Source of the DNA: Rhodovulum visakhapatnamense
Lineage (GTDB): Bacteria; Pseudomonadota; Alphaproteobacteria; Rhodobacterales; Rhodobacteraceae
Length of the DNA stretch: 64,000 nt
NCBI RefSeq assembly: GCF_004365965.1
Contig: NZ_SOEB01000001.1
Location: 310,001-374,000 of the forward strand
Reading direction: 5' to 3'
This document shows positions 10,386-25,502 of this stretch, one piece after another. The stretch's first letter is position 1, and each line of letters opens with the position of its first letter. The position numbers and the translations under genes were made by a program. The notes below the pieces were generated by a model. It was not told the DNA's origin. It was given only the letters and a program-made list of their open reading frames with translations, and searched no databases.

Positions 10386-13034
10386 TCAGGCCTCGTGCCG
10401 GCGGTCGCTGCCGCGCCGCTCGGCGCTCCGCCGGTCGCTGCGCCCGCCGATCAGCCGCGCGGCATCGGCCAGCGTCAACAGGGGCGGCAGCGCCGAGGGG
10501 GCGGCCAGATAGCGCGGCCGCCAGTCGGGGTCGAACTTGGCCTTGAAGGCGCGCAGCCCCTCGAAATTGTAAAAGCTCCGCCCGTGCCGGTAGATCAGCG
10601 CGCCGAACCGGTCCCACAGCCTGCGGCTGCGTTCCGGGCTCAGCCCCGACAGCGGCGCCATGCCCAGCGAGAAAGCGGCATAGCCCTCGTCCTTCAGCCG
10701 CAGCATCAGCGCGGTGAAGAGAAACTCCATGGTGCAGGGCGGCGCCGTCTCGACCTGGCGCATCAGGTCGATGCTGGCCTGGGTCCGGCTGTCGGTGACC
10801 AGCACATTGGCAAAGGCCACGACCCGGCCCGCGTGGCGCACCGTCGCCACCGGCCAGCGGTTCAGCCAGGCCGGATCGAACCGCCCGACCGAGAAGCCCT
10901 TTTCATGGGCGCGCTTGGCCGCAAGCCAGGCCTCCGACACGGTGCCCAGCTCGGCCAGAAGCGGAGCCGTATGGGGCGGCTCGGTCCAGTCGAGCGACAG
11001 CCCGTCGCGCAGCGCCCGCGCATGGGTCGTCCGCAGCTTCTTGCGGGCCGAGCCCTCCAGCGAAAACCGGGTGAGATCGACAACCGCCTCCTCGCCCATC
11101 TTGTGCAGCGACAGCCCCAGATCCAGCATGATCGGCACATCGGCCGCGCGCACCTCGTAGAAGGCCGGGCGCGCGCCCTCGCGCCGGGCGGCATCGACGA
11201 AGGCGAAGGCCACGTCCTCGGCGGCATCGGCGGGGCCGACCGGGCCGCCATAGGCGATCCAGGACCGGCCCGAGGCCGCGAACATCACGAAGGCGCGGCC
11301 ATCGTCCGAGACGAGGATCGACTTGTCGCCGGTCAGCGCAAAGCCCGCATCGGGGTTGTCGCCGCCCCCCGCGATCCGCGCCGCGGCCGCCAGATCCTCG
11401 GCATCGGGCGGGTCGGGCACCACGCGGGGCGCGCGCAACAGCATCAGAAGCGCCCCGAGCCCCAGCACGAGACTGCCCAGCAGCACGGCCCTCAGCGCGC
11501 GCGGCGCGCGTTCGTTGACCGCGAACTGCCACCAGAGCTCATGCGCATAAGGGGTCTGCTTGTGGGCGAAGAACAGCACGAAGCCGAAGCCCGCGATCAG
11601 TGCCACGATCAGCGCGACCCAGGCGGGCGTCAGCGTCGCATGGCTCAGCATCGTGTGGCGGTGGAAGGCATGGCGGAACGGCAGCAACAGCAGCGCGCCC
11701 GCCGCAAGAAACACCGCCCGGTCCAGATCGACGCCCTGGATCAGCGCCACCGCCGCGCCGGTCTCCATCACCACCAGCGCCAGCCAGAAGGCCGCCAGCG
11801 CCCGGCGCATCACCCCGAAGGACAGCAGCACCAGCGCCGCCCCGATCACGCTCGAGGCCAGGGCCGAGCCCTCGATGAAGGGCAGCGGGAACAGCGCCTC
11901 GGCGGCGCGGGCGGCCTCGGTCGTGGGCGGCAGGATCGACGAGACGCTCATCCAGAGCCCGGCGCCCAGGATCATCGAGCCCAGCACCAGCGGCGCGATC
12001 CCCTCGACCGCGCGAAAGCCCGGATCGGCGGCCGCGACCGCCCGCCCCCACTGGCCGCGCGGCAGATGCGCGCCCGCCGAGCGGAACAGCTCGTAGCTGG
12101 CCAGCGCCAGCAGGGCCACGCTGAACGGCACCAGGAAGTAGATCAGCCGGTAAAGAAGCAACGAGGCCGCCACTGCCTCGATCGAGGTCGAGGCCGGCAT
12201 CGCGGCGATCATCACCGCCTCGAAGACGCCGACGCCGCCCGGCACATGGCTCAGCACCCCGGCCATGGTCGCGGCGGCAAAGAGCGCGAGGAAAGTGGCA
12301 AAGCCCAGATCGTTCGCCGGCATCAGCAGATAAAGCGTCGCGGCGGCGAAGCCGATATCGCCCAGGCAAAAGACGATCTGCGCCGCCAGATCCCCCGGCG
12401 CCGGGGCGCGCAGGGAAAAGCGGCCGAGCTTCACGCAGCCTTGCCGCAGCGAGGCCCACAAAAGCGGCAGCGCGATCAGCGCCACACCGGCCAGCGCCAG
12501 CATGCGGACCGTGCCCGGCGCAAGCGGCAGCACCGCAGCCAGCGCGCCCGGATGGACCGCCAGCGCACCCAGCCCGACCACCGTCGCCGCCACCCCGAAC
12601 GACACCGCCGCGAAGGTCGAGACCGCGGCCACGTCGTAGCCGTCGAGCCCCAGCGCCGAATAGACCCGCCAGCGCACCGCCCCGCCCGACACCGCCGACA
12701 GCCCGATGGTGTTGCCGAAGGCATAGGCCATGAACCCGCCCGCCAGCACCACGGGTAACTTCAGCGGCTTGCCGATGAAGCGCAGCGCCGACCAGTCATA
12801 ACCCACCAGCGAGATATAGCTGGCCGCCGTCGCCGCCAGCGCCAGACCCACTGTCGACCAGGGCGTGGCGCGGACCTGCGCCACCACATCGGCGAAATCG
12901 ACCGCCGCCAGCAGCTTGTAAAGCGCCACCAGCCCCAGGACGAACAGGCCTGCGGCCAGGAGATAGGGAAAGCCCGCACGCAGGCGGGCCCAGGTGCCGG
13001 CAGAGCCGGCCTCGGGCTTGGGGTCCTCGGTCAA
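10386..13034 (-). CDS. mprF: Bifunctional phosphatidylglycerol aminoacyltransferase/flippase MprF
   Basis: This 882-residue protein has an N-terminal flippase half of many transmembrane segments (about residues 20-540) and a C-terminal cytoplasmic GNAT-like DUF2156 half (about 550-860). The family transfers Lys or Ala from aminoacyl-tRNA to phosphatidylglycerol and flips the product, lowering the net negative membrane charge and giving resistance to cationic peptides and acid stress. Recognisable blocks include GVGVFEAVMIA in the flippase half and GDKSILVSDDGRAFVMF and SFYNFEGLRAFKAKFDP in the synthase half. The start appears to be TTG at 13034 with AAGGTG upstream. The amino acid carried cannot be read from sequence by eye. 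Confidence 0.93.
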   Translation of the reverse strand: MTEDPKPEAGSAGTWARLRAGFPYLLAAGLFVLGLVALYKLLAAVDFADVVAQVRATPWSTVGLALAATAASYISLVGYDWSALRFIGKPLKLPVVLAGGFMAYAFGNTIGLSAVSGGAVRWRVYSALGLDGYDVAAVSTFAAVSFGVAATVVGLGALAVHPGALAAVLPLAPGTVRMLALAGVALIALPLLWASLRQGCVKLGRFSLRAPAPGDLAAQIVFCLGDIGFAAATLYLLMPANDLGFATFLALFAAATMAGVLSHVPGGVGVFEAVMIAAMPASTSIEAVAASLLLYRLIYFLVPFSVALLALASYELFRSAGAHLPRGQWGRAVAAADPGFRAVEGIAPLVLGSMILGAGLWMSVSSILPPTTEAARAAEALFPLPFIEGSALASSVIGAALVLLSFGVMRRALAAFWLALVVMETGAAVALIQGVDLDRAVFLAAGALLLLPFRHAFHRHTMLSHATLTPAWVALIVALIAGFGFVLFFAHKQTPYAHELWWQFAVNERAPRALRAVLLGSLVLGLGALLMLLRAPRVVPDPPDAEDLAAAARIAGGGDNPDAGFALTGDKSILVSDDGRAFVMFAASGRSWIAYGGPVGPADAAEDVAFAFVDAARREGARPAFYEVRAADVPIMLDLGLSLHKMGEEAVVDLTRFSLEGSARKKLRTTHARALRDGLSLDWTEPPHTAPLLAELGTVSEAWLAAKRAHEKGFSVGRFDPAWLNRWPVATVRHAGRVVAFANVLVTDSRTQASIDLMRQVETAPPCTMEFLFTALMLRLKDEGYAAFSLGMAPLSGLSPERSRRLWDRFGALIYRHGRSFYNFEGLRAFKAKFDPDWRPRYLAAPSALPPLLTLADAARLIGGRSDRRSAERRGSDRRHEA

Positions 13035-13325
13035 GGCTTCACCTTGCTCCCGTTCCGGTTGTATTCCGTTCTAGCATTTTCCGGGGCGCGGCGACACCGC
13101 CAATCCTCGGCGGGCGGACTCGCAGCGTCCCGGCGGGCGCCGCTTTCGCTTTGCCGGGCGCCTTTGGCCACCCGGCGCGACCGCGACAGCGGTGCCGTTC
13201 CTGCCAGCTACCGCGCCCGGCGGCCGATGGCCAGCCTTCTGCGACCGGAGGGACTTGAAAGATCCCGCCGCGCGGGCCTGTTGTCGCGCAGGCCATGCCG
13301 GAACCATCCCGGCCCAAGGCCCGCG

Positions 13326-14156
13326 CTACCAGCTCGCGGTGGCCTCCATCGCGACCGGGCCGCCTGCCTGCGCCGTCCAGAGCCGCAGGCTGTCGCCCTC
13401 GCAACTGGCATGCATCTCCATTTCGGCGGTATCGAACACGGTGGAGACGCTGCGAAAGGCAAAGCGCGACGGGCAACTGCCCTTGAGATCGGCCGCGAAT
13501 TGCAGAAGCAGCGTCGCCTGCATCGGACCATGGACCACGAGTCCGGGATAGCCCTCGACCTCGCGCGCATAGGGGGCGTCATAATGGATGCGGTGGCCGT
13601 TGAAGGTCAGGGCCGAATAGCGAAACAGCATCACCGGCCCGGGCATCAGCCGCCGGATCGAGCTGCCTTCGGCCGCCGGGTCCGCCTTCGGCCGCCGGAA
13701 CGGGGCGGCGGCGCGATAGACCAGATCCTGCCGTTCGGTCAGCGCCAGCCGCCCGCGGGCGCGGATCTTGTGGTCAACCGTCACGAACAGCAGCGGCCCC
13801 GAACGGCCGTGTTTCAGCGTGACATCGACGATGGTGGACCGCCGGGTCACGCTGTCCCCGATGCGCAGCGGCGTGTGAAAGCGGAATGCGCCTCCCGCCC
13901 ACATCCGCCGGGGCAGCGGCACCGGCGGCAGGAACCCGCCCCGCGCCGGATGGCCGTCGGGGCCAAGCCCGGCGCCCGGCACCGTCGGCTGCGCGAGGCA
14001 GAAATGGATCAGCAGCGGCGCCTCGTTGCCGGGCTGCAGCGGCCAGGTGCGGTCGAAGGTGGCGGCGAAGCGGCGGACCAGTTCGGGGGTCAGCCGCTCG
14101 GTCGCGGTCTCTTCCCGGCCGATCCAGCCGCGCAGATGCTCGATATCGAGATCCAT
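13326..14156 (-). CDS. MaoC/HTD2-like acyl-CoA hydratase (itaconyl-/mesaconyl-CoA hydratase family)
   Basis: This is a 276-residue hotdog-fold protein of the FAS1-like dehydratase group, with an N-terminal half (about 1-140) and a C-terminal half containing FRYSALTFNGHRIHYD (about 190-205), the conserved hydratase element of this group. Relatives include itaconyl-CoA and 3-methylfumaryl/mesaconyl-CoA hydratases. It follows the CoA-transferase gene directly (adjacent stop and start), so it is the third gene of an acyl-CoA dehydrogenase / CoA-transferase / hydratase operon. That arrangement is like the itaconate cluster of Pseudomonas, where the hydratase makes citramalyl-CoA. The family call is firm; the substrate is inferred from context. 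Confidence 0.82.
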   Translation of the reverse strand: MDLDIEHLRGWIGREETATERLTPELVRRFAATFDRTWPLQPGNEAPLLIHFCLAQPTVPGAGLGPDGHPARGGFLPPVPLPRRMWAGGAFRFHTPLRIGDSVTRRSTIVDVTLKHGRSGPLLFVTVDHKIRARGRLALTERQDLVYRAAAPFRRPKADPAAEGSSIRRLMPGPVMLFRYSALTFNGHRIHYDAPYAREVEGYPGLVVHGPMQATLLLQFAADLKGSCPSRFAFRSVSTVFDTAEMEMHASCEGDSLRLWTAQAGGPVAMEATASW

Positions 14157-15251
14157 TCAGGTCTCCCGGGGTTTCAGGGCGGGCACCGGGCCATAGCGGC
14201 GCGTCTCGCCCTCGACCCGGGCGGCGGGCGCGGGCATCGCGACCGGGCCGTTCGGGCTGTCGACCTCGATCCGGCGCAGGTGCGGATGGTTGGAAAGCCC
14301 GGCCATGTCATTGACCGAGGCAAAGGCGATGTCGGCGGCGACCAGGGCCGCCACGGCCTCCGCACCGTTGCGCCGGGCAAAGGCCTCGGCGACGATGCGG
14401 TCGGTCTCGGCGCGGTTCTGGACCCGCGCCACATTGGTCGCAAAGCGCGGATCGGTGCCCAGCCCGGGCGCGTCAAGGAAGCGCTCGGCCAGCTGGCGCC
14501 ATTCGCGGTCGCTCTGGATCGAGATCAGGATCGGGCGGCCGTCCTTCGGATGGAACACCCCGTAGGGCGCGATCGAGGGATGGGCCAGCCCGACCCGCCC
14601 CGGCGTGCGTCCGGCCTCGTGGTTCAGCAGCGGCACGGTCAGCCATTCGGCCATGACATCGAACATCGACACCGAAATCCGCGCCCCCTGCCCGGTCGCG
14701 CCGCGGCGGATCAGCGCCTCGAGGATCGCGGCATGGGCCGTGGCCCCGGTCGCGATATCGACGATCGAGACCCCCACCCGCGCCGGTTCCTCCGGTCCTC
14801 CGGTGATCGAGGACAGCCCCGATTCCGCCTGGATCAGCAGGTCATAGGCCTTGCGCCCGGCCAGCGGCCCCTCGCTGCCGTAGCCTGAAATGGCGCAAGA
14901 GATCAGCCGCGGATAGTCGCGCGCCAGCACCTCGTCGGAAAAGCCAAGCCGCGCCAGCGCGCCGGGCTTGAGGTTCTGCACCAGCACATCGGCCCCGGCC
15001 AGCAGGCCCGCCAGCGCCGCGCGCCCGGGCTCGCTGGCCAGATCCAGCGTCCGGGTCTCCTTGCCGCGGTTGAGCCAGACGAAATAGCTGGACTGTCCGG
15101 CCGCGGCATCGTCATAGCCGCGCGCGAAATCGCCGCCGGGCCGTTCGATCTTGACGACATGGGCGCCCGCATCGGCCAGCCGCGCGGTCGCGAAGGGCGC
15201 GGCCACCGCCTGCTCGACCGCCACCACCTCGATCCCTTCGAGCGGGCGCAT
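14157..15251 (-). CDS. CaiB/BaiF class III CoA-transferase
   Basis: This 364-residue class III (formyl-CoA type) CoA-transferase moves CoA between carboxylic acids without free intermediates. The N-terminus MRPLEGIEVVAVEQAVAAP and the block GADVLVQNLKPGALARLG are hallmark sequences. The catalytic Asp is Asp137 in the segment KAYDLLIQAESG. The family includes itaconate, mesaconate, succinate and carnitine CoA-transferases. Its ATG overlaps the dehydrogenase stop by one base (TGATG) and its stop abuts the hydratase start, so the three proteins are co-expressed. In the proposed pathway it activates a dicarboxylate for the downstream hydratase. Confidence 0.9.
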   Translation of the reverse strand: MRPLEGIEVVAVEQAVAAPFATARLADAGAHVVKIERPGGDFARGYDDAAAGQSSYFVWLNRGKETRTLDLASEPGRAALAGLLAGADVLVQNLKPGALARLGFSDEVLARDYPRLISCAISGYGSEGPLAGRKAYDLLIQAESGLSSITGGPEEPARVGVSIVDIATGATAHAAILEALIRRGATGQGARISVSMFDVMAEWLTVPLLNHEAGRTPGRVGLAHPSIAPYGVFHPKDGRPILISIQSDREWRQLAERFLDAPGLGTDPRFATNVARVQNRAETDRIVAEAFARRNGAEAVAALVAADIAFASVNDMAGLSNHPHLRRIEVDSPNGPVAMPAPAARVEGETRRYGPVPALKPRET

Positions 15252-16405
15252 CAGAACGACCTCGGCAGGCCCAGCACGTGTTCGGCCACATAGCTGAGGA
15301 TGAGATTGGTCGAGATCGGCGCCACCTGATACAGCCGGGTTTCGCGGAACTTGCGTTCGACATCGTATTCGCAGGCAAAGCCGAAGCCGCCATGGAATTG
15401 CAGGCAGGCATTGGCCGCCTCCCACGACGCCTTCGCGGCGAGATACTTTGCCATGTTGGCCTGGGCACCGCAGGGCTGACCGGCATCGTAAAGCCGGCAG
15501 GCCTCGAACCGCATCAGGCTGGCGGCCTCGACTTCGATGAAGGCCTCGGCAATCGGGAACTGCACGCCCTGGTTCTGGCCGATGGGGCGGCCGAAGACCT
15601 GGCGTTCGCGGACATAGTCGCTGACCTTGTCGGTGAACCAGTAGCCGTCGCCGATGCATTCGGCCGCGATCAGCGTGCGTTCGGCATTGAGCCCGGTCAG
15701 GATGTACTTGAACCCCTGCCCCTCCTCGCCGATCAGGTTCTCGGCCGGGATCTCGAGATTGTCGAAGAACAGCTCGTTGGTCTCGTGATTGACCATGTTG
15801 GGGATCGGCCGCACCGTCATGCCCGCCCCCATCGCCTCGCGGATATCGACGAGGAAGATCGACAGGCCCTCGGATTTCTTCGCGACCTCGGCCAGCGGCG
15901 TCGTGCGGGCCAGCAGGATCATCAGGTCGGAATGCTGGACCCGGCTGATCCAGACCTTCTGGCCATTGATGACATAGCGGTCGCCCTTCTTCACCGCCGT
16001 GGTCTTGATCCGGGTGGTGTCGGTGCCGGTGGTGGGCTCGGTCACGCCCATCGACTGCAGCCGCAAATCGCCCGCCGCGATCTTCGGCAGGTAGCGGCGG
16101 CGCTGCTCTTCCGAGCCGTGCCGGACCAGCGTCGTCATGTTGTACATCTGGCCGTGACAGGCGCCGGAATTGCCGCCCGAGCGGTTGATCTCTTCCATGA
16201 TGACCGAGGCCTCGGTCAGCCCCAGCCCCGAGCCGCCATACTCTTCCGGGATCAGCGCCGCCATCCATCCGGCTTCGGTCAGGGCCTGCACGAAGGCCTC
16301 GGGATAGCCGCGCTCGGCGTCGATCCGGCGGTGATAGTCGGACGGAAAGGTCGCGCACAGCGCGCGAATGGCGTCGCGGATGTCCTGGTGGGGGTCGGTC
16401 TGCAT
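15251..16405 (-). CDS. Acyl-CoA dehydrogenase family protein with relocated catalytic glutamate
   Basis: This is a 384-residue flavoprotein of the acyl-CoA dehydrogenase fold. Core motifs are present: VTEPTTGTDT for the FAD/substrate region, the arginine-rich helix YVRERQVFGRPIGQNQGVQF, and LQFHGGFGFACEYDVERKFRE near the C-terminus. The usual C-terminal base region (YEGT in most members) reads YQVAPIST here, so the Glu376-equivalent is missing. A Glu at 242 (NAERTLIAA) sits where isovaleryl- and long-chain-type enzymes carry their base. The start at 16405 is chosen over an upstream ATG at 16426 for length and spacing. It is the first gene of the operon, divergent from a LysR gene; a homologue sits in the Pseudomonas itaconate cluster. 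Confidence 0.88.
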   Translation of the reverse strand: MQTDPHQDIRDAIRALCATFPSDYHRRIDAERGYPEAFVQALTEAGWMAALIPEEYGGSGLGLTEASVIMEEINRSGGNSGACHGQMYNMTTLVRHGSEEQRRRYLPKIAAGDLRLQSMGVTEPTTGTDTTRIKTTAVKKGDRYVINGQKVWISRVQHSDLMILLARTTPLAEVAKKSEGLSIFLVDIREAMGAGMTVRPIPNMVNHETNELFFDNLEIPAENLIGEEGQGFKYILTGLNAERTLIAAECIGDGYWFTDKVSDYVRERQVFGRPIGQNQGVQFPIAEAFIEVEAASLMRFEACRLYDAGQPCGAQANMAKYLAAKASWEAANACLQFHGGFGFACEYDVERKFRETRLYQVAPISTNLILSYVAEHVLGLPRSF

Positions 16406-16458
16406 GGAGTGTCCTGCCTGGGGCATTTGAGCCAGAAATGCGCACGTCCCCCCATCAT

Positions 16459-16500
16459 GCAAATATATTCTTTGCCTGACTGCCATATGTTTTCTATATG
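16459..16500. promoter_or_regulatory. Two 17-base inverted repeats, probable LysR operator region
   Basis: GCAAATATATTCTTTGC (16459-16475) and CATATGTTTTCTATATG (16484-16500) each have 5-base arms around a 7-base spacer, and their starts are 25 bases apart. They are AT-rich islands in very GC-rich DNA, midway between the divergent dehydrogenase and LysR genes. The second contains the T-N11-A core of LysR boxes. Two sites about two and a half helical turns apart are what a LysR tetramer typically occupies. Confidence 0.7.
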
Positions 16501-16530
16501 GGCAGCGGATTGGACCCTTCGGGCACGGGC

Positions 16531-17505
16531 ATGGATCTGCGGCAGCTGCGCTATTTCATCGAAATCGTCGAACGCGGGTCGATCACCCGGGCCGCGGGTA
16601 CGCTGAACGTGGCCCAGCCCGCGCTGTCGCTGCATGTGCGCAACCTTGAGGACCGGCTTGGCACCCGGCTTCTGCTGCGCCGTCCGACCGGGGTGGTGCC
16701 GACCGAGGCGGGCGAGCTTCTGGCGCGGCGGGCGCGGTCGATCCTCGACGAGGTGGCCCGGACCGAGGCCGAGATCCGCGGGCTCGAGACCGACCCCTCG
16801 GGGCGGGTCGCGATCGGGCTGACCGGGACCATCGGCGGGCTTCTGGCGGTGCCGCTGATCGAGGCGCTGCGCGAGCGCTATCCGCGGATCACGCTGCAGA
16901 TCGCCGAGGCGATGAGCGGGTTTGTCGCCGGATGGCTGTCCGAAGGCCGGGTCGATCTGGCGGTGCTTTACGAGGCCCCGGCCGATCCGGGGCTGGCCTG
17001 CGATCCGCTGCTGGAAGAGGAACTGGTCGTGCTCTGGCCGCCCGACTGGCCCGCCCCGCCGGAAATCGCGCTGGCCGCGCTTGAGGACGTGCCGCTGGTG
17101 CTGCCGAGCCGGGCGCATGGGTTGCGCCGGATGATCGACGCCCGGCTCGCGACCGACGGGATTGCGCCGGAACTGGCCGTCGAGATCGATTCCTATGCCA
17201 ATATCAAGAACCTGGTCGCGGCGGGCTTCGGCGCCTCGGTGCTGCCCTGGCACGCGGTCGCGCCCGAGGCCGAGGCCCGCGCGCTGAGCGTCAGCCGGAT
17301 CGCGACGCCGGGGCTCTGGCGCGGGGCCTGGCTGATCCGCCCGGCCGCGCGCCCGGTGACCCGCGCCCAGGAGGCCGTGGCCGAGACCCTGCGCGCGGTG
17401 GTGGGGGACCTTCTGGCGGGCGGGGTCTGGGCGGCGGCGCGCGCCCCTAGCCTGCCGCCGGACCGCGCCGGAACAGCCGCGCCGACATCGGCTGGGTCAG
17501 GGTGA
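16531..17505 (+). CDS. LysR-family transcriptional regulator
   Basis: This 324-residue LysR-type regulator has an N-terminal winged helix-turn-helix (MDLRQLRYFIEIVERGS followed by ITRAAGTLNVAQPALSLHV), a linker helix and a periplasmic-binding-protein-like effector domain (about 90-300). Start at 16531: an upstream in-frame ATG at 16498 falls inside the presumed operator and adds 11 atypical residues. It is transcribed away from the acyl-CoA dehydrogenase operon, the usual arrangement for a LysR protein controlling its neighbour and itself; the ligand is probably the organic acid or CoA ester of that pathway. The 3' end overlaps the convergent methyltransferase gene by 59 bases. Confidence 0.92.
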   Translation: MDLRQLRYFIEIVERGSITRAAGTLNVAQPALSLHVRNLEDRLGTRLLLRRPTGVVPTEAGELLARRARSILDEVARTEAEIRGLETDPSGRVAIGLTGTIGGLLAVPLIEALRERYPRITLQIAEAMSGFVAGWLSEGRVDLAVLYEAPADPGLACDPLLEEELVVLWPPDWPAPPEIALAALEDVPLVLPSRAHGLRRMIDARLATDGIAPELAVEIDSYANIKNLVAAGFGASVLPWHAVAPEAEARALSVSRIATPGLWRGAWLIRPAARPVTRAQEAVAETLRAVVGDLLAGGVWAAARAPSLPPDRAGTAAPTSAGSG

Positions 17506-18124: not shown

Positions 18125-18270
18125 GCGGGGGCGGCCTTTCGCAACGGGGACATGCCCGATCCCTAGGCGACTTCGCCCCGCCCCGCAATTCGGCCGAGCG
18201 GCGCAGCCCGGTCCGGCTTGCCAGGACGTTGCGGCGCGGGGAACATTCGGCCCGACCGACGGAGAGCCCG

Positions 18271-20307
18271 ATGACCAACGATCCCCTGCTTTCGCCCTTC
18301 CAGCTGCGCCACCTGACGCTGAAGAACCGGATCTTCCTGTCCGCGCACGAACCCGCCTATGCCGAGGACGGCCTGCCCAAGGACCGCTACCGCGCCTATC
18401 ACGTCGAACGCGCCCGGGCCGGGGTCGCGCTGACCATGACGGCGGGGTCGGCCTCGGTCTCGCGCGACAGCCCGCCCGCCTTCAACAACATCCTCGCCTG
18501 GAAGGACGAGGTGGTGGGCTGGATGAAACGGCTGACCGACGACTGCCACGCGCACGGCACGGCGGTGATGATCCAGCTGACCCATCTGGGCCGCCGCACC
18601 CGCTGGGATCGCGGCGACTGGCTGCCGGTGGTCTCGGCCGGGCCCGCCCGCGAGGTCGCGCACCGGGCCTTTCCCAAGACCGCCGAAGATTGGGACATCG
18701 CCCGCATCGTGGCCGACTATGCCGATGCCGCCGAGCGGATGCAGGCGGCCGGGCTCGACGGGATCGAGCTTGAGGCCTATGGCCATCTGCTCGACCAGTT
18801 CTGGTCGCCCCTGACCAATGCGCTTGAACCGCCCTGGGGCGGCGATCTCGACGACCGGATGCGCCTGTCGATGGAGGTGCTGCGGGCGATCCGCGACCGG
18901 GTCGGCCCCGATTTCATCGTCGGCATCCGCCATGTCGCCGACGAGGCGCTGCCCGGCGGGATCGGCGCGGCCGAGGGGCTTGAGATTGCCCGGCGGCTGA
19001 AGGCAAGCGGGCTGGTCGATTTCCTGAACGTGATCCGCGGCCATATCGACACCGATGCCGGGCTGACCGACGTGATCCCGGTGCAGGGGATGAAAAGCGC
19101 GCCGCATCTCGATTTCGCGGGCGGCATCCGGGCCGCGACCGGGCTGCCCACCCTGCATGCCGCGCGCATCCCCGATCTGGCGACCGCGCGGCACGCCATC
19201 GCCGAGGGCAAGCTCGACATGGTCGGCATGACCCGTGCCCATCTGGCCGACCCGCATCTGATCGCCAAGCTGGTGGCGGGCGCCGAGGACCGCATCCGCC
19301 CCTGCGTCGGCGCCAATTACTGTCTCGACCGGATCTATCAGGGCGGGTCCGCCTATTGCCTGCACAACCCCGCGACCGGGCGCGAGCTGACCATGCCGCA
19401 TCTGGTGCCGAAGGCCGCCGCGCCTTTGAAGGTCGTCGTGGTCGGCGCCGGGCCCGGCGGGCTCGAAGCCGCGCGGGTCGCGGCCGAACGCGGCCACGAG
19501 GTCGTCCTGCACGAGGCCGCGAACGATCCCGGCGGTCAGGTCCGGCTGCTGGCGCGCCACCCGCGCCGGGCCGAGATGATGGCGGTGATCGACTGGCGCA
19601 TGGCCGAATGCACCCGGCTTGGCGTCAGCTTCCGGTTCAATTCCTGGGCCGAGCCCGAAACGGTGCAGGCCGAGGCGCCCGATGTGGCGATCGTCGCCAC
19701 CGGCGGCCTGCCGCCCGAGCCGGGTCTGGCCGAGGGCGACGGGCTTGCGGTGTCAGCCTGGGACATCCTGTCGGGCGCCGTGCGGCCGGGCACGAACGTG
19801 CTCTTGTGGGACGATGCGGGCGATCACGCCGGGCTGCAGACCGCCGAGACGCTGGCCGCGTCCGGCGCGCGGGTCGAGATCGTCTGCCGCGACCGGGGGC
19901 TGGTGCCCGAGGTGATGGCGATGTCGCTGACCCCGGCGATCCGGGCCTTGCAGCGGGCCGATGTGGTCTGGACCCCGACCTGGCGGCTCGACGCGATCCG
20001 GCGGACAGGGAATGCGCTGACCGCGCGGCTTGGCAGCGATTACGGCCCCGAGACACGCGAACGGCAGGTCGATCAGGTGGTGGTCAATACGGGCACGCAT
20101 CCGCTTGACGATCTTTATTTCGGGCTGCGGCCGGGCGCGTCGAACCTGGGAGAGGTCGATTACCCCGCGCTGATCGAAGGGCGGCCGCAGGCGCTCAACC
20201 GCAATCCCGAGGGGCGCTATCGGCTGTTCCGCATTGGCGACGCGGTGGCCGCGCGCAATGTGCATGCCGCGATCTACGACGCGCTGCGGCTGGTGAAGGA
20301 CCTGTAG
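18271..20307 (+). CDS. Old yellow enzyme-type FMN/FAD iron-sulfur oxidoreductase (N-methylproline demethylase / dienoyl-CoA reductase family)
   Basis: This 678-residue protein has an N-terminal FMN-binding TIM barrel (1-340), an iron-sulfur linker, and a C-terminal NAD(P)/FAD-binding unit starting at VVVVGAGPGGLEAAR (388-402). The layout is that of trimethylamine dehydrogenase, 2,4-dienoyl-CoA reductase and the N-methylproline (stachydrine) demethylases; the sequence reads closest to the last group, a judgement from memory. In the cluster motif Cys345, Cys351 and Cys363 are present, but the position of the second cysteine (348) is Ala (CVGANYC). The start has CGGAGAG upstream. It is monocistronic, between a divergent methyltransferase gene and a convergent ABC importer operon; import of a methylated amine by that importer is possible but unproven. 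Confidence 0.85.
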   Translation: MTNDPLLSPFQLRHLTLKNRIFLSAHEPAYAEDGLPKDRYRAYHVERARAGVALTMTAGSASVSRDSPPAFNNILAWKDEVVGWMKRLTDDCHAHGTAVMIQLTHLGRRTRWDRGDWLPVVSAGPAREVAHRAFPKTAEDWDIARIVADYADAAERMQAAGLDGIELEAYGHLLDQFWSPLTNALEPPWGGDLDDRMRLSMEVLRAIRDRVGPDFIVGIRHVADEALPGGIGAAEGLEIARRLKASGLVDFLNVIRGHIDTDAGLTDVIPVQGMKSAPHLDFAGGIRAATGLPTLHAARIPDLATARHAIAEGKLDMVGMTRAHLADPHLIAKLVAGAEDRIRPCVGANYCLDRIYQGGSAYCLHNPATGRELTMPHLVPKAAAPLKVVVVGAGPGGLEAARVAAERGHEVVLHEAANDPGGQVRLLARHPRRAEMMAVIDWRMAECTRLGVSFRFNSWAEPETVQAEAPDVAIVATGGLPPEPGLAEGDGLAVSAWDILSGAVRPGTNVLLWDDAGDHAGLQTAETLAASGARVEIVCRDRGLVPEVMAMSLTPAIRALQRADVVWTPTWRLDAIRRTGNALTARLGSDYGPETRERQVDQVVVNTGTHPLDDLYFGLRPGASNLGEVDYPALIEGRPQALNRNPEGRYRLFRIGDAVAARNVHAAIYDALRLVKDL

Positions 20308-20386: not shown

Positions 20387-21082
20387 TCATACCCCGAGAT
20401 GGCGCCGCAGGAGATCGGGGTCGGTCCGCAGCCGCGCGGCGTCGGCCTCGGCCCGGACGGCGCCGGTCTCGAGGATCACCGCCCGGTCGGCCGTGGCCAG
20501 AACGGCGTCGAGCCGCTGTTCGACCAGCAGGATCGCGACGCCTTCGTCGCGCAGCCTGAGCACGGTGTCGCGGATCAGCGCGATCATCGAGGGCTGAAGC
20601 CCCTCGGTCGGCTCGTCCAGCAACAGGACCCGTGGGGCGAGGCACAGCGCCCGCGCGGTGGCCAGCATCTGCTGTTCGCCCCCCGACAGGGTTCCGGCCC
20701 GCTGGCCCATCCGGTCGGCAAGCCGCGGGAACATCGCCAGCACCCGGTCGCGCACCTCGGGCGGGCTTTTGCGGCAGCGCATCCCGATCTCGAGGTTCTG
20801 CGCGACCGTCAGATCCGCGAAGAGACGTCGCCCCTGCGGGATATAGCCGATGCCCCGGCGCGGCACCTCATGGGCCGGCAGCCTGCCGATATCCTCGCCG
20901 TCCAGAAGCACCTGGCCACCCGACAGCGGCAGAAGCCCCATGATCGCCTTCATCGCCGTGGTCTTGCCTGCGCCGTTCCGGCCCAGAAGGCAGGTGATCT
21001 CGCCCGGCCGGACGGTCAGGCTGAGCCCGCGCAGCACCCGGACCGGCCCGTAGCCCGCCGCGATGTTCCTGACCTCAAGCAT
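20387..21082 (-). CDS. livF: Branched-chain amino-acid-type ABC transporter ATPase LivF
   Basis: This 231-residue ATPase has Walker A GRNGAGKT, signature LSGGEQQM, Walker B VLLLDEPTEGL and a LivF-type GYIPQGRRLFADLTV segment after the Q-loop. It is the last gene of a complete five-gene liv-type importer. Start at 21082: the ATG lies 8 bases inside the 3' end of livG. The next gene to the left is convergent, so transcription should end in the 79 bases between them, though no strong hairpin is evident there. Confidence 0.93.
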   Translation of the reverse strand: MLEVRNIAAGYGPVRVLRGLSLTVRPGEITCLLGRNGAGKTTAMKAIMGLLPLSGGQVLLDGEDIGRLPAHEVPRRGIGYIPQGRRLFADLTVAQNLEIGMRCRKSPPEVRDRVLAMFPRLADRMGQRAGTLSGGEQQMLATARALCLAPRVLLLDEPTEGLQPSMIALIRDTVLRLRDEGVAILLVEQRLDAVLATADRAVILETGAVRAEADAARLRTDPDLLRRHLGV

Positions 21083-21800
21083 CGGCCGAGCGTCCCAGAT
21101 AGGCGGCCTGCACCCGCGCATCGGCCCGGATCGCGGCGGGTGCGCCCTCGGCCAGCACGACCCCCGCATCGAGCACGGTGATGCGGTCGGCCAGGTCCAT
21201 CACGACGCCCATGTTATGCTCGATCAGCAGGATCGCGGTCTCGCCCGCAAGGGCGCGGACCAGCGCCTTGAAGGTCTCGATCTCGGGCTCGGACAAGCCT
21301 TGCGTCGGTTCGTCGAGGATGAGAACGCGCGGCGCTTGCGCGAGCCCCATCGCCAGTTCCAGCAGGCGCTGATGGCCATAGCTCAGATCGCCCGCCGCGC
21401 TGTCGTCGCGCCCGGTCAGGCCGACCCGGCCCAGCGTCCGGGCGACCTCGGCGGCAACGGCGGCGCGGTCGCGGCCGAACCGGCGGCGGGCGGCCAGCGC
21501 CACGTTCTCGGCGACCGGAAGCCGGGCGAAGACCGAGGTGATCTGGAAGGTATAGGCCAGCCCAAGCCGCACCCGGGCATGGGCGGGCAGCCGGGTGATG
21601 TCCTGGCCGTCGAAGACGATACGTCCCGACGAGGGCGCGACACGGCCGATCAGCATCGACACGAAGGTGGTCTTGCCTGCGCCATTCGGCCCGATCAGCG
21701 CCCGGACCTCGCCGGGGCCGAGGTCCAGATCGACCTCATGGACGGCGCGCAGCCCGCCGAAGCTGCGCGAGAGCGCCCGGGTCGACAGAAGCGCGCTCAT
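21075..21800 (-). CDS. livG: Branched-chain amino-acid-type ABC transporter ATPase LivG
   Basis: This 241-residue ATPase has Walker A GPNGAGKT, a diverged LivG signature DLSYGHQRLLELAMGLA, Walker B VLILDEPTQGL and the switch region LLIEHNMGVV. It pairs with LivF. The start codon overlaps the livM stop in ATGA; an alternative ATG 15 bases upstream lies within livM and is less likely. Its 3' end overlaps livF by 8 bases. Confidence 0.93.
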   Translation of the reverse strand: MSALLSTRALSRSFGGLRAVHEVDLDLGPGEVRALIGPNGAGKTTFVSMLIGRVAPSSGRIVFDGQDITRLPAHARVRLGLAYTFQITSVFARLPVAENVALAARRRFGRDRAAVAAEVARTLGRVGLTGRDDSAAGDLSYGHQRLLELAMGLAQAPRVLILDEPTQGLSEPEIETFKALVRALAGETAILLIEHNMGVVMDLADRITVLDAGVVLAEGAPAAIRADARVQAAYLGRSADA

Positions 21801-22738
21801 GGCAGGCCCCGCCACCAGCGGCGCCGGATCTCGCCCGCCAGCCCCTGCGGGGCGAACAGCGTCAACAGAACCAGCGCCACGCCCGCGATCAGCATGTAGG
21901 CGGGCGTCAGCCCCGAGGCGAGGTCGATCAGGTAGAACATGAAGAGCGTGCCGAGAAACGGCCCGATCACCGTGCCCGCGCCGCCCAGCAGGACCCAGAG
22001 CAACGGAAAGATCGAATAGTGCGTTTCGGCGAAGCTGGCCCCGGCATAGCCGAAGAAAAGCCCGTAGGCCGCGCCCGCCGCCCCCGAGACCGTGCCCGAC
22101 AGCACGACCGCGCCCAGCTTGTGGCGGAAGGTGTCATAGCCCAGAAGCTCGGCCCGGTCCTCGTTCTCGCGGATCGCGACCAGCACCCGGCCCATCGGCT
22201 GGCGGACCAGCCAGAGCGTACCGAAAAGGACGGCCGAGAACAGCGCAAGCGCCGCCAGATAGCGGGTCTGCGGGTCGGAGAGGTCGAGCCCCAGCAGAAC
22301 CCGGTCGGCCTGCGGGATCACCACGCCCTCGTCGCCCCGGGTCCAGCGCCCCGCGAGAAGGATCGTCAGCCAGGCGGCCTGCGCGAACATCAGCGTCACG
22401 ATCATGAAGGCGACGCCCCTGGTGCGCAGCGCCAGGAGCCCCACGCCCAGCGACAGGACCGCCGCGGCACCGATGCCGGTCAGAAGCGCAGGCCCCGCGC
22501 CAAGGCCCAGATGCGTCATCGGCATCGCAAGCCCGTACATGCCCGCGGCAAAGAACATCGCGTGGCCGAGGCTGAGCAGCCCGGTATAGCCGAAGAGGAT
22601 GTTGTAGCCCATCGCATAGGTCGCCAGCACCATCACCCGGGCGACGGTGCCATGGCTGTAGGCGGGCAGCAGGAAGTTCAGTGCAAAAAGGACCGCGATC
22701 AGCCCCAGATGCAGCCCGATGATGCGCCCGCCCCTCAT
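21797..22738 (-). CDS. livM: Branched-chain amino-acid-type ABC transporter permease LivM
   Basis: This 313-residue polytopic permease has the LivM pattern MGYNILFGYTGLLSLGHAMFF near the N-terminus, where LivM and LivH families carry a conserved GxxSxGH-like element, and about eight to nine hydrophobic segments. It forms the transmembrane heterodimer with LivH. Its ATG overlaps the livH stop (ATGA) and its stop overlaps the livG start, so the membrane and ATPase subunits are translationally coupled. Confidence 0.93.
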   Translation of the reverse strand: MRGGRIIGLHLGLIAVLFALNFLLPAYSHGTVARVMVLATYAMGYNILFGYTGLLSLGHAMFFAAGMYGLAMPMTHLGLGAGPALLTGIGAAAVLSLGVGLLALRTRGVAFMIVTLMFAQAAWLTILLAGRWTRGDEGVVIPQADRVLLGLDLSDPQTRYLAALALFSAVLFGTLWLVRQPMGRVLVAIRENEDRAELLGYDTFRHKLGAVVLSGTVSGAAGAAYGLFFGYAGASFAETHYSIFPLLWVLLGGAGTVIGPFLGTLFMFYLIDLASGLTPAYMLIAGVALVLLTLFAPQGLAGEIRRRWWRGLP

Positions 22739-23670
22739 CGCGCGGCCTTGCCCCTCAGGCCCTCGGGCCGGAACACCAGTACCAGCGCCACCAGCAGCGT
22801 GGCGAGGATCTTGGCCAGCGTCGGCGAGAAGAAGACCGAGACGATGCCGTCGGACAGCCCGATCAGCAGCGCCGCGATCACCGTGCCGCCAAGGCTGCCG
22901 AGCCCGCCGATGATGACCACGATGAAGGACAGCAGAAGCGCGTCGCCCCCCATCAGGTAATGCGCCTGCTGGATCGGCACGATCAGCACGCCCGCAAGGG
23001 CGGCCAGTGCCGCCCCCAGCCCGAAAACCCCGGCATAGACCCGTTCGACCGGAATGCCGAAGGCCTGCGCGGTCTCGCGGTCCAACTGGGTCGCGCGCAT
23101 CACCAGCCCGATCCCGGTCCTGGTCATCAGCGCCCAGAGCCCGGCCAGCACCGCCGCCGCGGCCCCCATCACGAAAAGCTTGTAGGAGGTGATCGACAGC
23201 CCCCAGGGCCAGATCAGCCTAGGTCCCTCCGGGCCGAACGCGACCCAGGGCAGCGCGAGGCGGTCGTTGAAGGGCGGCGCCACCGGGCGCGCCTCGGGGC
23301 CATAGGTCATCAGCGCGGCCTGCTGCAGGATGTACAGCAGCCCGATGGTGGCGACGATGGTCCGTTCGGGGTCGTAGCCCACGCGCTTGAGCACCGTCAG
23401 GTCGGCCGCGACCGCCAGCGCCCCGGCGATGACCGGCGCCAGCAGGACTGCCGCGACAAAGCCGAAGGCCCCGCCCCCCAGAGCCGAGGACACCGCCGAG
23501 GACACCGCCCAGGCCAGCACCGCGCCCAGCATGAAGAACTGGCCATGGGCGACATTGACGACGCGCATCACCCCGAAGACGAGGCTGAGCCCCGAGGCCA
23601 TCAGCGCCAGCACCGCGGCGGTGACCGCGCCCTCCAGCACGGCAAGCATCAGATGTGGGCCGAATTCCAT
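22735..23670 (-). CDS. livH: Branched-chain amino-acid-type ABC transporter permease LivH
   Basis: This 311-residue permease has the LivH hallmark SLVFGVMRVVNVAHGQFFML near the N-terminus and the C-terminal IIGGLGSLGGTVIAALLIG block that contacts the ATPase. Start at 23670, with GGAG 6 bases upstream. A GC-rich hairpin with a U-tract (23726-23767) separates it from the binding-protein gene. Confidence 0.93.
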   Translation of the reverse strand: MEFGPHLMLAVLEGAVTAAVLALMASGLSLVFGVMRVVNVAHGQFFMLGAVLAWAVSSAVSSALGGGAFGFVAAVLLAPVIAGALAVAADLTVLKRVGYDPERTIVATIGLLYILQQAALMTYGPEARPVAPPFNDRLALPWVAFGPEGPRLIWPWGLSITSYKLFVMGAAAAVLAGLWALMTRTGIGLVMRATQLDRETAQAFGIPVERVYAGVFGLGAALAALAGVLIVPIQQAHYLMGGDALLLSFIVVIIGGLGSLGGTVIAALLIGLSDGIVSVFFSPTLAKILATLLVALVLVFRPEGLRGKAAR

Positions 23671-23725
23671 GCGCGCTCCGGAACGGGAGGGGGCCGGGTG
23701 AAGACCCCGGACCCTTGAGGACTGG

Positions 23726-23767
23726 AAAAGCGCGCGCCGGCGCCCGGTCGCGGGCCCCGGCGCGCGC
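23726..23767 (-). terminator. Intra-operon hairpin with U-tract after the liv binding-protein gene
   Basis: The arms at 23730-23740 and 23757-23767 are perfectly complementary (GCGCGCGCCGG on the plus strand), and on the minus strand the stem is followed by TTTT. It is placed exactly like the hairpin in the peptide-type importer operon: directly after the binding-protein gene and before the permease RBS. Partial termination or 3' protection of the binding-protein mRNA is the likely role. Confidence 0.72.
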
Positions 23768-23779
23768 AACGACCCCTGC

Positions 23780-25081
23780 CTAGAGCGATTGCGTCGTGTA
23801 GTCGACCTCGTCGGGATAGAACCCGGCCTCGATCGGGGTTTCCGCCTGCACGACCAGCCGCCCGTTCTCGACCTTCGAGATGTATTGCGGCCCGAAGACC
23901 TGGTGCGTCCGACCGTTGAAGAGCTTGGCGCCCTGCGGATGTTCGTTCGACAGCGGCATCTCGGTCATCGCCTCGACCGCCTCGACCAGCGCCGCGCGGT
24001 CGTCGGGGCCGCGGTAGCCGCAGGCCTCCATCCCGGCCTTGATGACGTAAAGCGTCTCCCAGCAGCCGAACATGTGGGCATAGGCCGAGACATCGGACGG
24101 ATCGGCGGCCAGCGCGCCGTTCTCGTCGATGCCGATGGCCGCGCGGTAATGGCGGTCGAACTCGGTCTGGTCGGGCTGGACGTAGCGGGGCATGCCCTCC
24201 CAGAAATAGGTGCCTTCCAGGAAGTCGAGCCCCGGGCTTTGCAGATCGACCGACTCGAGGCTGTCGATGAAGCCGAAGATCTCGGGCCGCGACGGACCGA
24301 AGAATTCGCCCATCTCCTTGACGAAGGTCAGGACCGAGGGGCCGACCATGACATGGTAGATCACCTCGGTCTCGCGCGGGATCTTGGCGAAATACTTGGT
24401 GAAGGAGGTTTCGGTGGGCGGGATCGCCAGCTTTGCCACCACCTCGCCGCCCTGGGCCTCGATCGCCTCGCTGAAGAAGTCGCGATGGTCATGGCCGAAG
24501 GCGTAGTCGGGGAAGATCATCGTGACCTTGCGCCCGAGATTTTCGCGCACGAAGGGGGCCATCGCCAGCACCTGGCTTTTGACATCGGTGATGCCGGGCT
24601 GCAGGGTCCAGCGGTTGAGCGCACCCGAGGCCACGTGATGGCCTTCGGAGACCACGAAATAGGGCAGCTTCAGCTCGCCCGCACGGGGCGCCGAACCCAT
24701 CACCACATGGCTGAAAAGCGTGCCATAGCCGACATCGCAGCGGTGCAGGCTGGCGAATTTCTCGACCACCTCGGCGCCGCGCTTGGGATCGGTGCCGTCA
24801 TCCTCGGTGACCAGCTCGACCGGCCGACCGTTGATGCCGCCCGCCTCGTTGATCAGCCGCAGCGCGGCCCGGGTGGTGCGGTCGTACCAGCGGCCATAGG
24901 CAGCGCCGATGCCGGTCGCATGCATCTGGAACCCGATCCGGATCGGCGCGGCGCTTTCGGCCCCGGCATAGCGCGCCCAGAGCGGCAGGCTCGCGGTGCC
25001 GGCAGCGGCGGCGGCGAGCGTCTTGATCGCGGAGCGGCGGGCGGGGCTCCGGGGGGCTGCATCGGTCTTGGTCACGGGCAT
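23780..25081 (-). CDS. ABC transporter substrate-binding protein, LivK/family 4 type
   Basis: This 433-residue periplasmic ligand-binding protein starts with a leader that has twin arginines (ARRSAIKTLAAAAAG), so Tat export is possible. The type I binding-protein fold follows, with APIRIGFQMHATG, INEAGGINGRPVELVTEDDGTDP and the hinge residues typical of family 4. Start at 25081 is chosen because GGAAAGAG lies just upstream; two earlier ATGs (25093, 25105) lack one. Family members bind branched-chain amino acids, amides, urea or aromatic acids, so the ligand is open. It is the first gene of the livKHMGF-like operon and is divergent from a receiver-domain gene. Confidence 0.9.
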   Translation of the reverse strand: MPVTKTDAAPRSPARRSAIKTLAAAAAGTASLPLWARYAGAESAAPIRIGFQMHATGIGAAYGRWYDRTTRAALRLINEAGGINGRPVELVTEDDGTDPKRGAEVVEKFASLHRCDVGYGTLFSHVVMGSAPRAGELKLPYFVVSEGHHVASGALNRWTLQPGITDVKSQVLAMAPFVRENLGRKVTMIFPDYAFGHDHRDFFSEAIEAQGGEVVAKLAIPPTETSFTKYFAKIPRETEVIYHVMVGPSVLTFVKEMGEFFGPSRPEIFGFIDSLESVDLQSPGLDFLEGTYFWEGMPRYVQPDQTEFDRHYRAAIGIDENGALAADPSDVSAYAHMFGCWETLYVIKAGMEACGYRGPDDRAALVEAVEAMTEMPLSNEHPQGAKLFNGRTHQVFGPQYISKVENGRLVVQAETPIEAGFYPDEVDYTTQSL

Positions 25082-25502
25082 GGCTCTTTCCATGGGAACG
25101 GTCATTGCCGGTTCAGTCTGGGGACGGCATGTGCGTTTGTCTACGCCATTGGGACAATTCGCCTCAGCTCGATCGGCGGGTGCAGGCCGCCCCGCGCCCG
25201 GGCCGAAAGGCCGCCACCCGGACCGGGGCGCCTGCCCGTTTGCACCGGCTGCGACCGGGCACGAAGCCCGTCGGGCGAAACGCGTGAAGGACCCGCATTT
25301 CAAAGGCCTGTCGGATCTTGCGACGATCGGTCGGATTTTCTTGATTTGCTCCTGCGACGCTGCGGCATTTTCGGGTATGCTTTCCCCAACGTCAGTCTCC
25401 ATGCGGGGGTCGGGCGGTGTCACTCCATTTCACGAACCCGGGATGCTCACGAAATCAGAATATGCACCCGCATCGGGACCAGCGGCAGAGGGGACCAGCC
25501 GG
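25082..25502. other. 421-base divergent promoter region
   Basis: This stretch lies between the starts of the liv binding-protein gene (leftwards) and the receiver gene (rightwards). No frame looks like a protein. It is less GC-rich than its surroundings around 25325-25395, where promoter elements of either gene could lie, but I see no clear -35/-10 pair or large palindrome. An ATG at 25443, in frame with the receiver gene, lacks a ribosome-binding site. Confidence 0.5.

Follow-up and report, generated by a model that had tools for sequence, protein, structure and literature searches.

A lyase-less itaconate/methylsuccinate-type operon in Rhodovulum visakhapatnamense, with malyl-CoA lyase as a candidate for its last step

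How might a pathway for branched C5 dicarboxylates be completed where the gene for its last enzyme is missing? A three-gene operon raises this question in a stretch of 64,000 nucleotides from Rhodovulum visakhapatnamense (contig NZ_SOEB01000001.1, positions 310,001 to 374,000; hereafter the window, in whose numbering its features are given). On the minus strand, genes for an acyl-CoA dehydrogenase (ACAD; 15251–16405, ATG at 16403–16405), a class III (CaiB/BaiF) CoA-transferase (14157–15251) and an FAS1-DH/HTD2-like hydratase (13326–14156) follow one another, and a LysR-type regulator gene diverges from them on the plus strand (16531–17505). The ACAD stop codon and the transferase ATG overlap by one base (TGATG), and the transferase stop immediately precedes the hydratase ATG; the three genes are translationally coupled. 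A first-pass annotation, made from the letters alone, had described coupled genes facing a divergent LysR gene, and the coordinates, start/stop overlaps and Pfam matches bear this out. The order is more than a chance arrangement, since we found it in 37 further loci, one being a duplicate record. We lean slightly toward reading this as a C5-dicarboxylate operon that has lost its dedicated (S)-citramalyl-CoA lyase (Ccl), with the cell's malyl-CoA lyase, Mcl1, cleaving (S)-citramalyl-CoA instead.

The pathway is already known; the trimmed form without a lyase gene, which recurs in relatives, is new, and our searches of an open-access library turned up no paper on it. The known cluster of Pseudomonas aeruginosa and Cupriavidus necator (ich, mcd, msi, ict, ccl) has the same three enzyme families with a LysR gene alongside. 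The published order of PA0878–PA0886 (PMC12290011, PMC9875883) is that of a P. aeruginosa plasmid record (LysR, hydratase, ACAD, VOC protein, MmgE/PrpD, CaiB/BaiF, CoA ester lyase, TRAP genes), and proteins from the plasmid, chosen by gene order, served as stand-ins for the characterized PAO1 enzymes. The window's ACAD, transferase and hydratase are 82%, 50% and 53% identical to their counterparts there, which upholds the kinship with the Pseudomonas itaconate cluster proposed in the first pass. The operon in the window differs in having no ccl, msi, VOC or TRAP transporter genes beside it, in its gene order and in its LysR protein (26% identical). The Yersinia-type three-gene itaconate operon follows the same pathway logic with non-homologous or distantly homologous enzymes; as described, it includes a lyase and no dehydrogenase (PMC12290011). 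The P. aeruginosa plasmid used for the comparison (L188; NZ_CP131792.1, 710067–725194), 847 kb long and typed as conjugative, carries the itaconate/methylsuccinate cluster complete.

The ACAD has the Pfam domains Acyl-CoA_dh_N, Acyl-CoA_dh_M and Acyl-CoA_dh_1. Over 376 residues it shares 82% identity with its counterpart in the P. aeruginosa ich-mcd-VOC-msi-ict-ccl cluster, and it is 83–87% identical to the ACADs of 11 complete five-gene clusters. Glu241 and a C-terminal APIST stretch are invariant in seven aligned proteins; the catalytic Glu lies at the APIST-type C-terminal place in many acyl-CoA dehydrogenases and at the Glu241-type place in isovaleryl-CoA dehydrogenase. Judged by sequence alone, the gene belongs with the methylsuccinyl-C4-CoA dehydrogenase gene (mcd) of the P. 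aeruginosa-type cluster, and its product is probably an (RS)-methylsuccinyl-C4-CoA dehydrogenase (Mcd). No NCBIfam model passed its cut-off for the ACAD or the transferase, and the hydratase matched none at all. The first pass had remarked that the dehydrogenase stands first in the operon. Its presence is nothing unusual: clusters of the saprophyte type regularly include it, and the ACAD of the P. aeruginosa/Cupriavidus-type cluster is reported as an (RS)-methylsuccinyl-C4-CoA dehydrogenase (PMC12290011). When genes were removed from P. putida carrying the P. aeruginosa cluster, growth on methylsuccinate was reported to require Ict, Ich, Ccl and the ACAD (PMC9875883). With an ACAD at the operon head, methylsuccinate is indicated besides itaconate, and the sequences make methylsuccinate a likely substrate and itaconate a likely second one. 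An ACAD of the same kind (81.5%) stands on Cupriavidus pinatubonensis plasmid p2 (L190) beside a FabG-like reductase, pyruvate carboxylase and cytochrome P450; no such transferase, such hydratase or lyase is annotated in that 15-kb stretch.

The hydratase reaches 54.9 bits against FAS1_DH_region (cut-off 22), and its best PDB matches are 8huc (E 4e-69) and 8khg, named itaconyl-CoA hydratase (E 5.4e-69), with 52% identity over 233 aligned residues. It is 53% identical over 228 residues to P. aeruginosa Ich and 42% identical over 276 to its own paralogue; Ich itself scores 218 bits with the window hydratase and 160 with the one other hydratase found in the genome. The FNGHRIHYD region is conserved in eight aligned proteins save for one Gly/Ala change. 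These similarities place the gene with the itaconyl-CoA hydratase gene (ich) of the P. aeruginosa-type cluster, for which hydration to (S)-citramalyl-CoA has been described (PMC12290011). We rate the dehydrogenase and hydratase identifications as good. The genome's second HTD2-like hydratase (C6:83411–84166, L069) is 40–45% identical to the window's and, at 21 bits, falls just below the FAS1_DH_region cut-off. In 14 of the genus's 16 genomes it has relatives, which group as a single clade; its distance to an Asp/Glu racemase-like gene is about 2.4 kb.

The transferase (CoA_transf_3, 331.7 bits) is the first match in the genome to P. aeruginosa Ict (337.5 bits vs 217.3 for the next) and is 50–51% identical to it (50% over 366 residues). 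One Asp, which we take to be the catalytic residue, is conserved in all 97 aligned proteins. The gene thus falls with the itaconate CoA-transferase gene (ict) of the P. aeruginosa-type cluster; of the three assignments it is the least secure, fair by our grading, and the product is a probable itaconate/methylsuccinate CoA-transferase. Ict is reported to be efficient with (R)-methylsuccinate and itaconate, and the Cupriavidus transferase gave <0.1 µmol/min/mg with mesaconate (PMC12290011, Table 2). Among the alternative C5 substrates named in the first pass, methylsuccinate is likely in view of the 82% ACAD identity, and mesaconate is unlikely as a direct substrate by analogy with the Cupriavidus enzyme. 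Methylsuccinate isomerase (msi of the five-gene form) was not found in the genome at E 1e-20 with full-length Cupriavidus MmgE as query, which gave E 3e-168 or better in five of five control genomes from other classes, nor in any of the 38 loci of the window gene order. Because the genome has no recognizable isomerase gene, use of (S)-methylsuccinate by this organism appears doubtful; perhaps the transferase also takes (S)-methylsuccinate, or perhaps use is confined to the (R) form.

The lyase is the missing piece. In lyase-bearing loci the estimated distance between the hydratase end and the lyase start is −10 to 26 bp. At this place the window has a gap (13035–13325), followed by an MprF-like gene with LPG_synthase_C/TM matches (10386–13034). 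Absence of the lyase from the neighborhood, as claimed in the first pass, was borne out when lyases of four relatives were compared with the whole window by tblastn: the best E value was 0.68, and a lyase remnant beside the operon was rejected on the same result. The window thus has no ccl gene of the P. aeruginosa type, and no close relative of Ccl was found in the genome.

To place this absence we compared 118 loci and kept the 109 whose ACAD is at least 72% identical to the window's (dropped: L038, L080, L083, L086, L088, L091, L093, L096 and L097). The comparison includes 80 named loci, which are the top 80 of at least 585 from one scan, so their identities are biased upward. Some rows are not independent: L039 and L173 have identical proteins, L116 and L122 are one species, L076 and L077 are near-copies, L142 duplicates L079, and the window and L070–L072 belong to one genus. 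The commonest order was ACAD-transferase-hydratase-lyase (21 loci), followed by the same order without the lyase (17 loci) and the five-gene cluster with isomerase (11 loci). Downstream sequence of at least 950 bp is available for 13 of the 17 lyase-less loci; three others break off too early, and one duplicates another of the 17. The lyase therefore directly follows the hydratase in 21 of 38 loci of this order, or 21 of the 34 decidable ones, with 13 lacking it and four undecidable.

The 21 four-gene loci share the window's order and coupling, often with a LysR gene alongside, and their ACAD, transferase and hydratase are 86–90%, 66–77% and 55–68% identical to the window's. They differ from it in ending with a CoA ester lyase gene, and some add genes for the electron-transfer flavoprotein (ETF) and pyruvate carboxylase. 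Examples lie on plasmids of Limimaricola (L. variabilis), Haematobacter (H. massiliensis), Actibacterium and Bosea; one plasmid-borne lyase has 8khl and 9nzb, acyl-CoA lyase beta chain, as its best PDB matches. A shorter form, with dehydrogenase and transferase alone, occurs in L110, L112, L124, L143, L159, L165 and L167; hydratase and lyase were not found there in 3.2–8.9 kb of downstream flank. Many isomerase-bearing clusters are likewise reported to lack one of the five genes (PMC12290011).

On a tree of concatenated proteins from 37 operons and six outgroup rows, in which many forks are open, presence of the lyase changes at least four times on supported branches and seven times by parsimony. 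The label is somewhat clustered, with 21–24 of 500 shuffles equally low. We read the changes as repeated loss, although gains are also possible, because the lyase is present in the five-gene clusters too. No common replacement gene appeared among the next two or three open reading frames (ORFs) of nine lyase-less loci (L073, L078, L081, L082, L087, L115, L116, L122 and L147), and that candidate explanation was rejected; length was the sole criterion for choosing these ORFs, and the ones from L082 are questionable.

Within the window's genus, the operon is kept under selection. It is present in four of 16 genomes including the window's (hydratase identity 86–100%), in all four with open frames and with no lyase in the operon. 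The start of the MprF-like gene keeps its position in all three congeners, with no lyase in the intervening stretch. The congeners' ACADs are 97–98% identical to the window's, and dN/dS against the window was 0.073–0.094 for the dehydrogenase, 0.145–0.171 for the transferase and 0.125–0.235 for the hydratase (nine gene-by-congener comparisons, 0.07–0.24 overall). The three genes are under purifying selection, and the operon is not decaying.

Could the lyase be elsewhere in the genome? The genome search for CitE/HpcH-type lyases suggested in the first pass did return four PF03328 matches (two HpaI/GarL-like aldolases, the malyl-CoA lyase Mcl1 and a CitE-like protein), none of them a close relative of Ccl. 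With a relative's lyase as query, the genome's top hit is the CitE-like protein (C19:40499–41299; 38% identity, 114 bits), compared with 293–377 bits in six lyase-bearing controls, and we therefore rejected a near relative of Ccl at another site in the genome. Among nine genomes with a lyase-less operon (the set omits those of L115, L116, L122 and L147), eight had no match above 120 bits to the relative's lyase, and the ninth (G188) had one of 176.5 bits elsewhere. The first-pass choice between a lyase located elsewhere and a different substrate thus fits poorly, since growth on methylsuccinate is reported to need Ccl as well (PMC9875883) and the genome has no close Ccl relative.

Mcl1 (contig C9) is 87% identical to Rhodobacter sphaeroides malyl-CoA lyase (MCL, 4L9Y), for which reversible citramalyl-CoA formation was reported by Zarzycki and Kerfeld (PMC3832036). 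By this analogy, Mcl1 is a natural candidate for citramalyl-CoA cleavage. The genome also has a crotonyl-CoA carboxylase/reductase (Ccr) gene at C19:27533 (TIGR01751, 613.6 bits; cut-off 378.55), about 12 kb from the CitE-like gene, so that Ccr and the malyl-CoA/beta-methylmalyl-CoA lyase of the ethylmalonyl-CoA pathway are both present. That pathway likewise runs through methylsuccinyl-, mesaconyl- and malyl-type CoA esters; it differs in using C1-CoA esters and another dehydrogenase and in yielding glyoxylate and propionyl-CoA (PMC12290011).

We also looked for an association across the phylum, drawing 388 genomes and scoring at most five ACAD candidates per genome. ACAD matches at E 1e-150 occurred in 63 genomes, and the copies split into those at ≥75% identity (29 genomes) and those at ≤69%. 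A Ccl match of at least 150 bits was found in 23 of the 29, including 20 of 20 outside the window's class, and Mcl1 at ≥580 bits in six. Four of the six genomes without Ccl had Mcl1, compared with two of the 23 with Ccl (Fisher p 0.008). We take this as a hint, not a test.

Several observations weigh against the reading put forward above, the proposed substitution by Mcl1 included. The association is confounded by kinship, as all six Mcl1 carriers belong to the window's family, and the 150-bit cut and the other thresholds were chosen after the scores had been seen. A close Mcl1 is missing from two genomes without Ccl (G321 and G578). Within the family, the weak match given by Mcl1 turns up in genomes with Ccl as well, so Mcl1 alone does not make Ccl dispensable. 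The R. sphaeroides assay ran in the condensing direction with a 200-fold excess of pyruvate (PMC3832036). The transferase falls in a clade separate from the beta/gammaproteobacterial type; its best PDB match is named a formyl-CoA transferase; and it stays far below cut-off with its nearest named models, those for succinate-glutarate (217.5 bits, cut-off 750), oxalate (210.9, cut-off 522) and mesaconate CoA-transferases (177.6, cut-off 700). Grouping the hydratase firmly with P. aeruginosa Ich failed: in the tree, built on 67 of 105 rows, the hydratases of these operons group by themselves (support 98) without P. aeruginosa Ich among them, and the deeper joins are weak. The missing isomerase and the distant LysR protein count on the same side.

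With these points weighed, the reading we favor is a catabolic operon for branched C5 dicarboxylates, probably under LysR control. The CoA-transferase would activate itaconate or methylsuccinate with succinyl-CoA as donor. The dehydrogenase would convert methylsuccinyl-C4-CoA to mesaconyl-C4-CoA, passing electrons to the cell's ETF, and the hydratase would form (S)-citramalyl-CoA from either itaconyl-CoA or mesaconyl-C4-CoA. The dedicated lyase would have been lost rather than repeatedly gained, and Mcl1 of the ethylmalonyl-CoA pathway would split (S)-citramalyl-CoA into acetyl-CoA and pyruvate. The kinship of the three enzymes, the absence and patchiness of the lyase, and the presence of Mcl1 and Ccr are observations; the takeover of the last step by Mcl1 is a testable guess.

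The most serious alternative, which we consider unlikely, is detoxification without a lyase. Here the transferase would swap CoA between (S)-citramalyl-CoA and incoming itaconate and, with the hydratase, convert itaconate to free (S)-citramalate, a harmless product that would be excreted or slowly used. CoA exchange from citramalyl-CoA to itaconate has been described for the P. aeruginosa transferase (PMC12290011), and the 13 loci without a lyase, with nothing common in its place in nine, would suit such a scheme. Attributing the exchange to the window enzyme is an analogy across 50% identity to Ict, and detoxification leaves unexplained why the dehydrogenase is the most conserved gene (97–98% in congeners, dN/dS 0.07–0.09), which argues for a catabolic role.

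It is less probable still that the CitE-like protein at C19:40499–41299 acts in trans, cleaving or hydrolyzing citramalyl-CoA. Its rank as the genome's best match to the relative's lyase and the ccr gene on the same contig speak for it. Matches of 35–43% occur, though, in all 24 family genomes, including those with Ccl. In R. sphaeroides the protein from such a gene context, Mcl2, is a malyl-CoA thioesterase, and the C19 protein may be its counterpart.

We give little credence to a pathway that starts from some other 2-substituted succinate or C5 acid and ends in another way, even though the separate transferase clade, the lack of an isomerase in all 38 loci and transferase models that leave the substrate unsettled are in keeping with it. 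Against it, the ACAD is 83–87% identical to its counterparts in the 11 complete five-gene clusters, the lyase is kept by 21 of 34 decidable loci (one with 8khl/9nzb as best PDB matches), and pyruvate carboxylase is nearby in two of six annotated plasmid loci. That the operon is a functionless, decaying remnant is suggested by the loss of its last gene and is very improbable, given open frames in four congeneric genomes, low dN/dS in all nine comparisons and conserved promoter blocks.

Those blocks lie in the divergent promoter region (16406–16530) between the ACAD and LysR genes. They include CAAATATAT and are kept in three congeners and partly in G197. Together with an inverted repeat, CCATAT-N7-ATATGG (16483–16501), the CAAATATAT block is a candidate LysR box. 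The LysR gene itself (Pfam HTH_1 and LysR_substrate), for which an in-frame ATG further upstream at 16498 is possible, has divergent counterparts in all three congeners and in some of the relatives. Beyond it lie an Old-yellow-enzyme/FadH-like flavoenzyme gene (18229–20307, plus strand; TIGR03997 at 469.3 bits, below the cut-off of 793.15), missing from the corresponding site of congeners G302 and G308, whose sequences align on either side of it, and a LIV/Urt-type ABC transporter with two ATPases, two permeases and a periplasmic binding protein (20387–25423, minus strand).

More tentatively, and with clearly less confidence than in the takeover itself, the idea may extend to ethylmalonyl-CoA-pathway bacteria at large: malyl-CoA lyase would be shared by two pathways, Ccl would be dispensable and repeatedly lost, and the operon would return C5 acids, possibly the cell's own leaked methylsuccinate, to central metabolism. 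Methylorubrum extorquens, which has the ethylmalonyl-CoA pathway and was engineered to excrete 2-methylsuccinic and mesaconic acid, is reported to take these up again (PMC9529712), and by this analogy salvage of the cell's own methylsuccinate is conceivable but speculative. If the takeover by Mcl1 is real, predictions of itaconate and methylsuccinate use based on ccl would miss part of the Rhodobacterales, and the operon would show cleanly how a gene can be lost when two pathways, converging on malyl-type CoA esters, share an enzyme.

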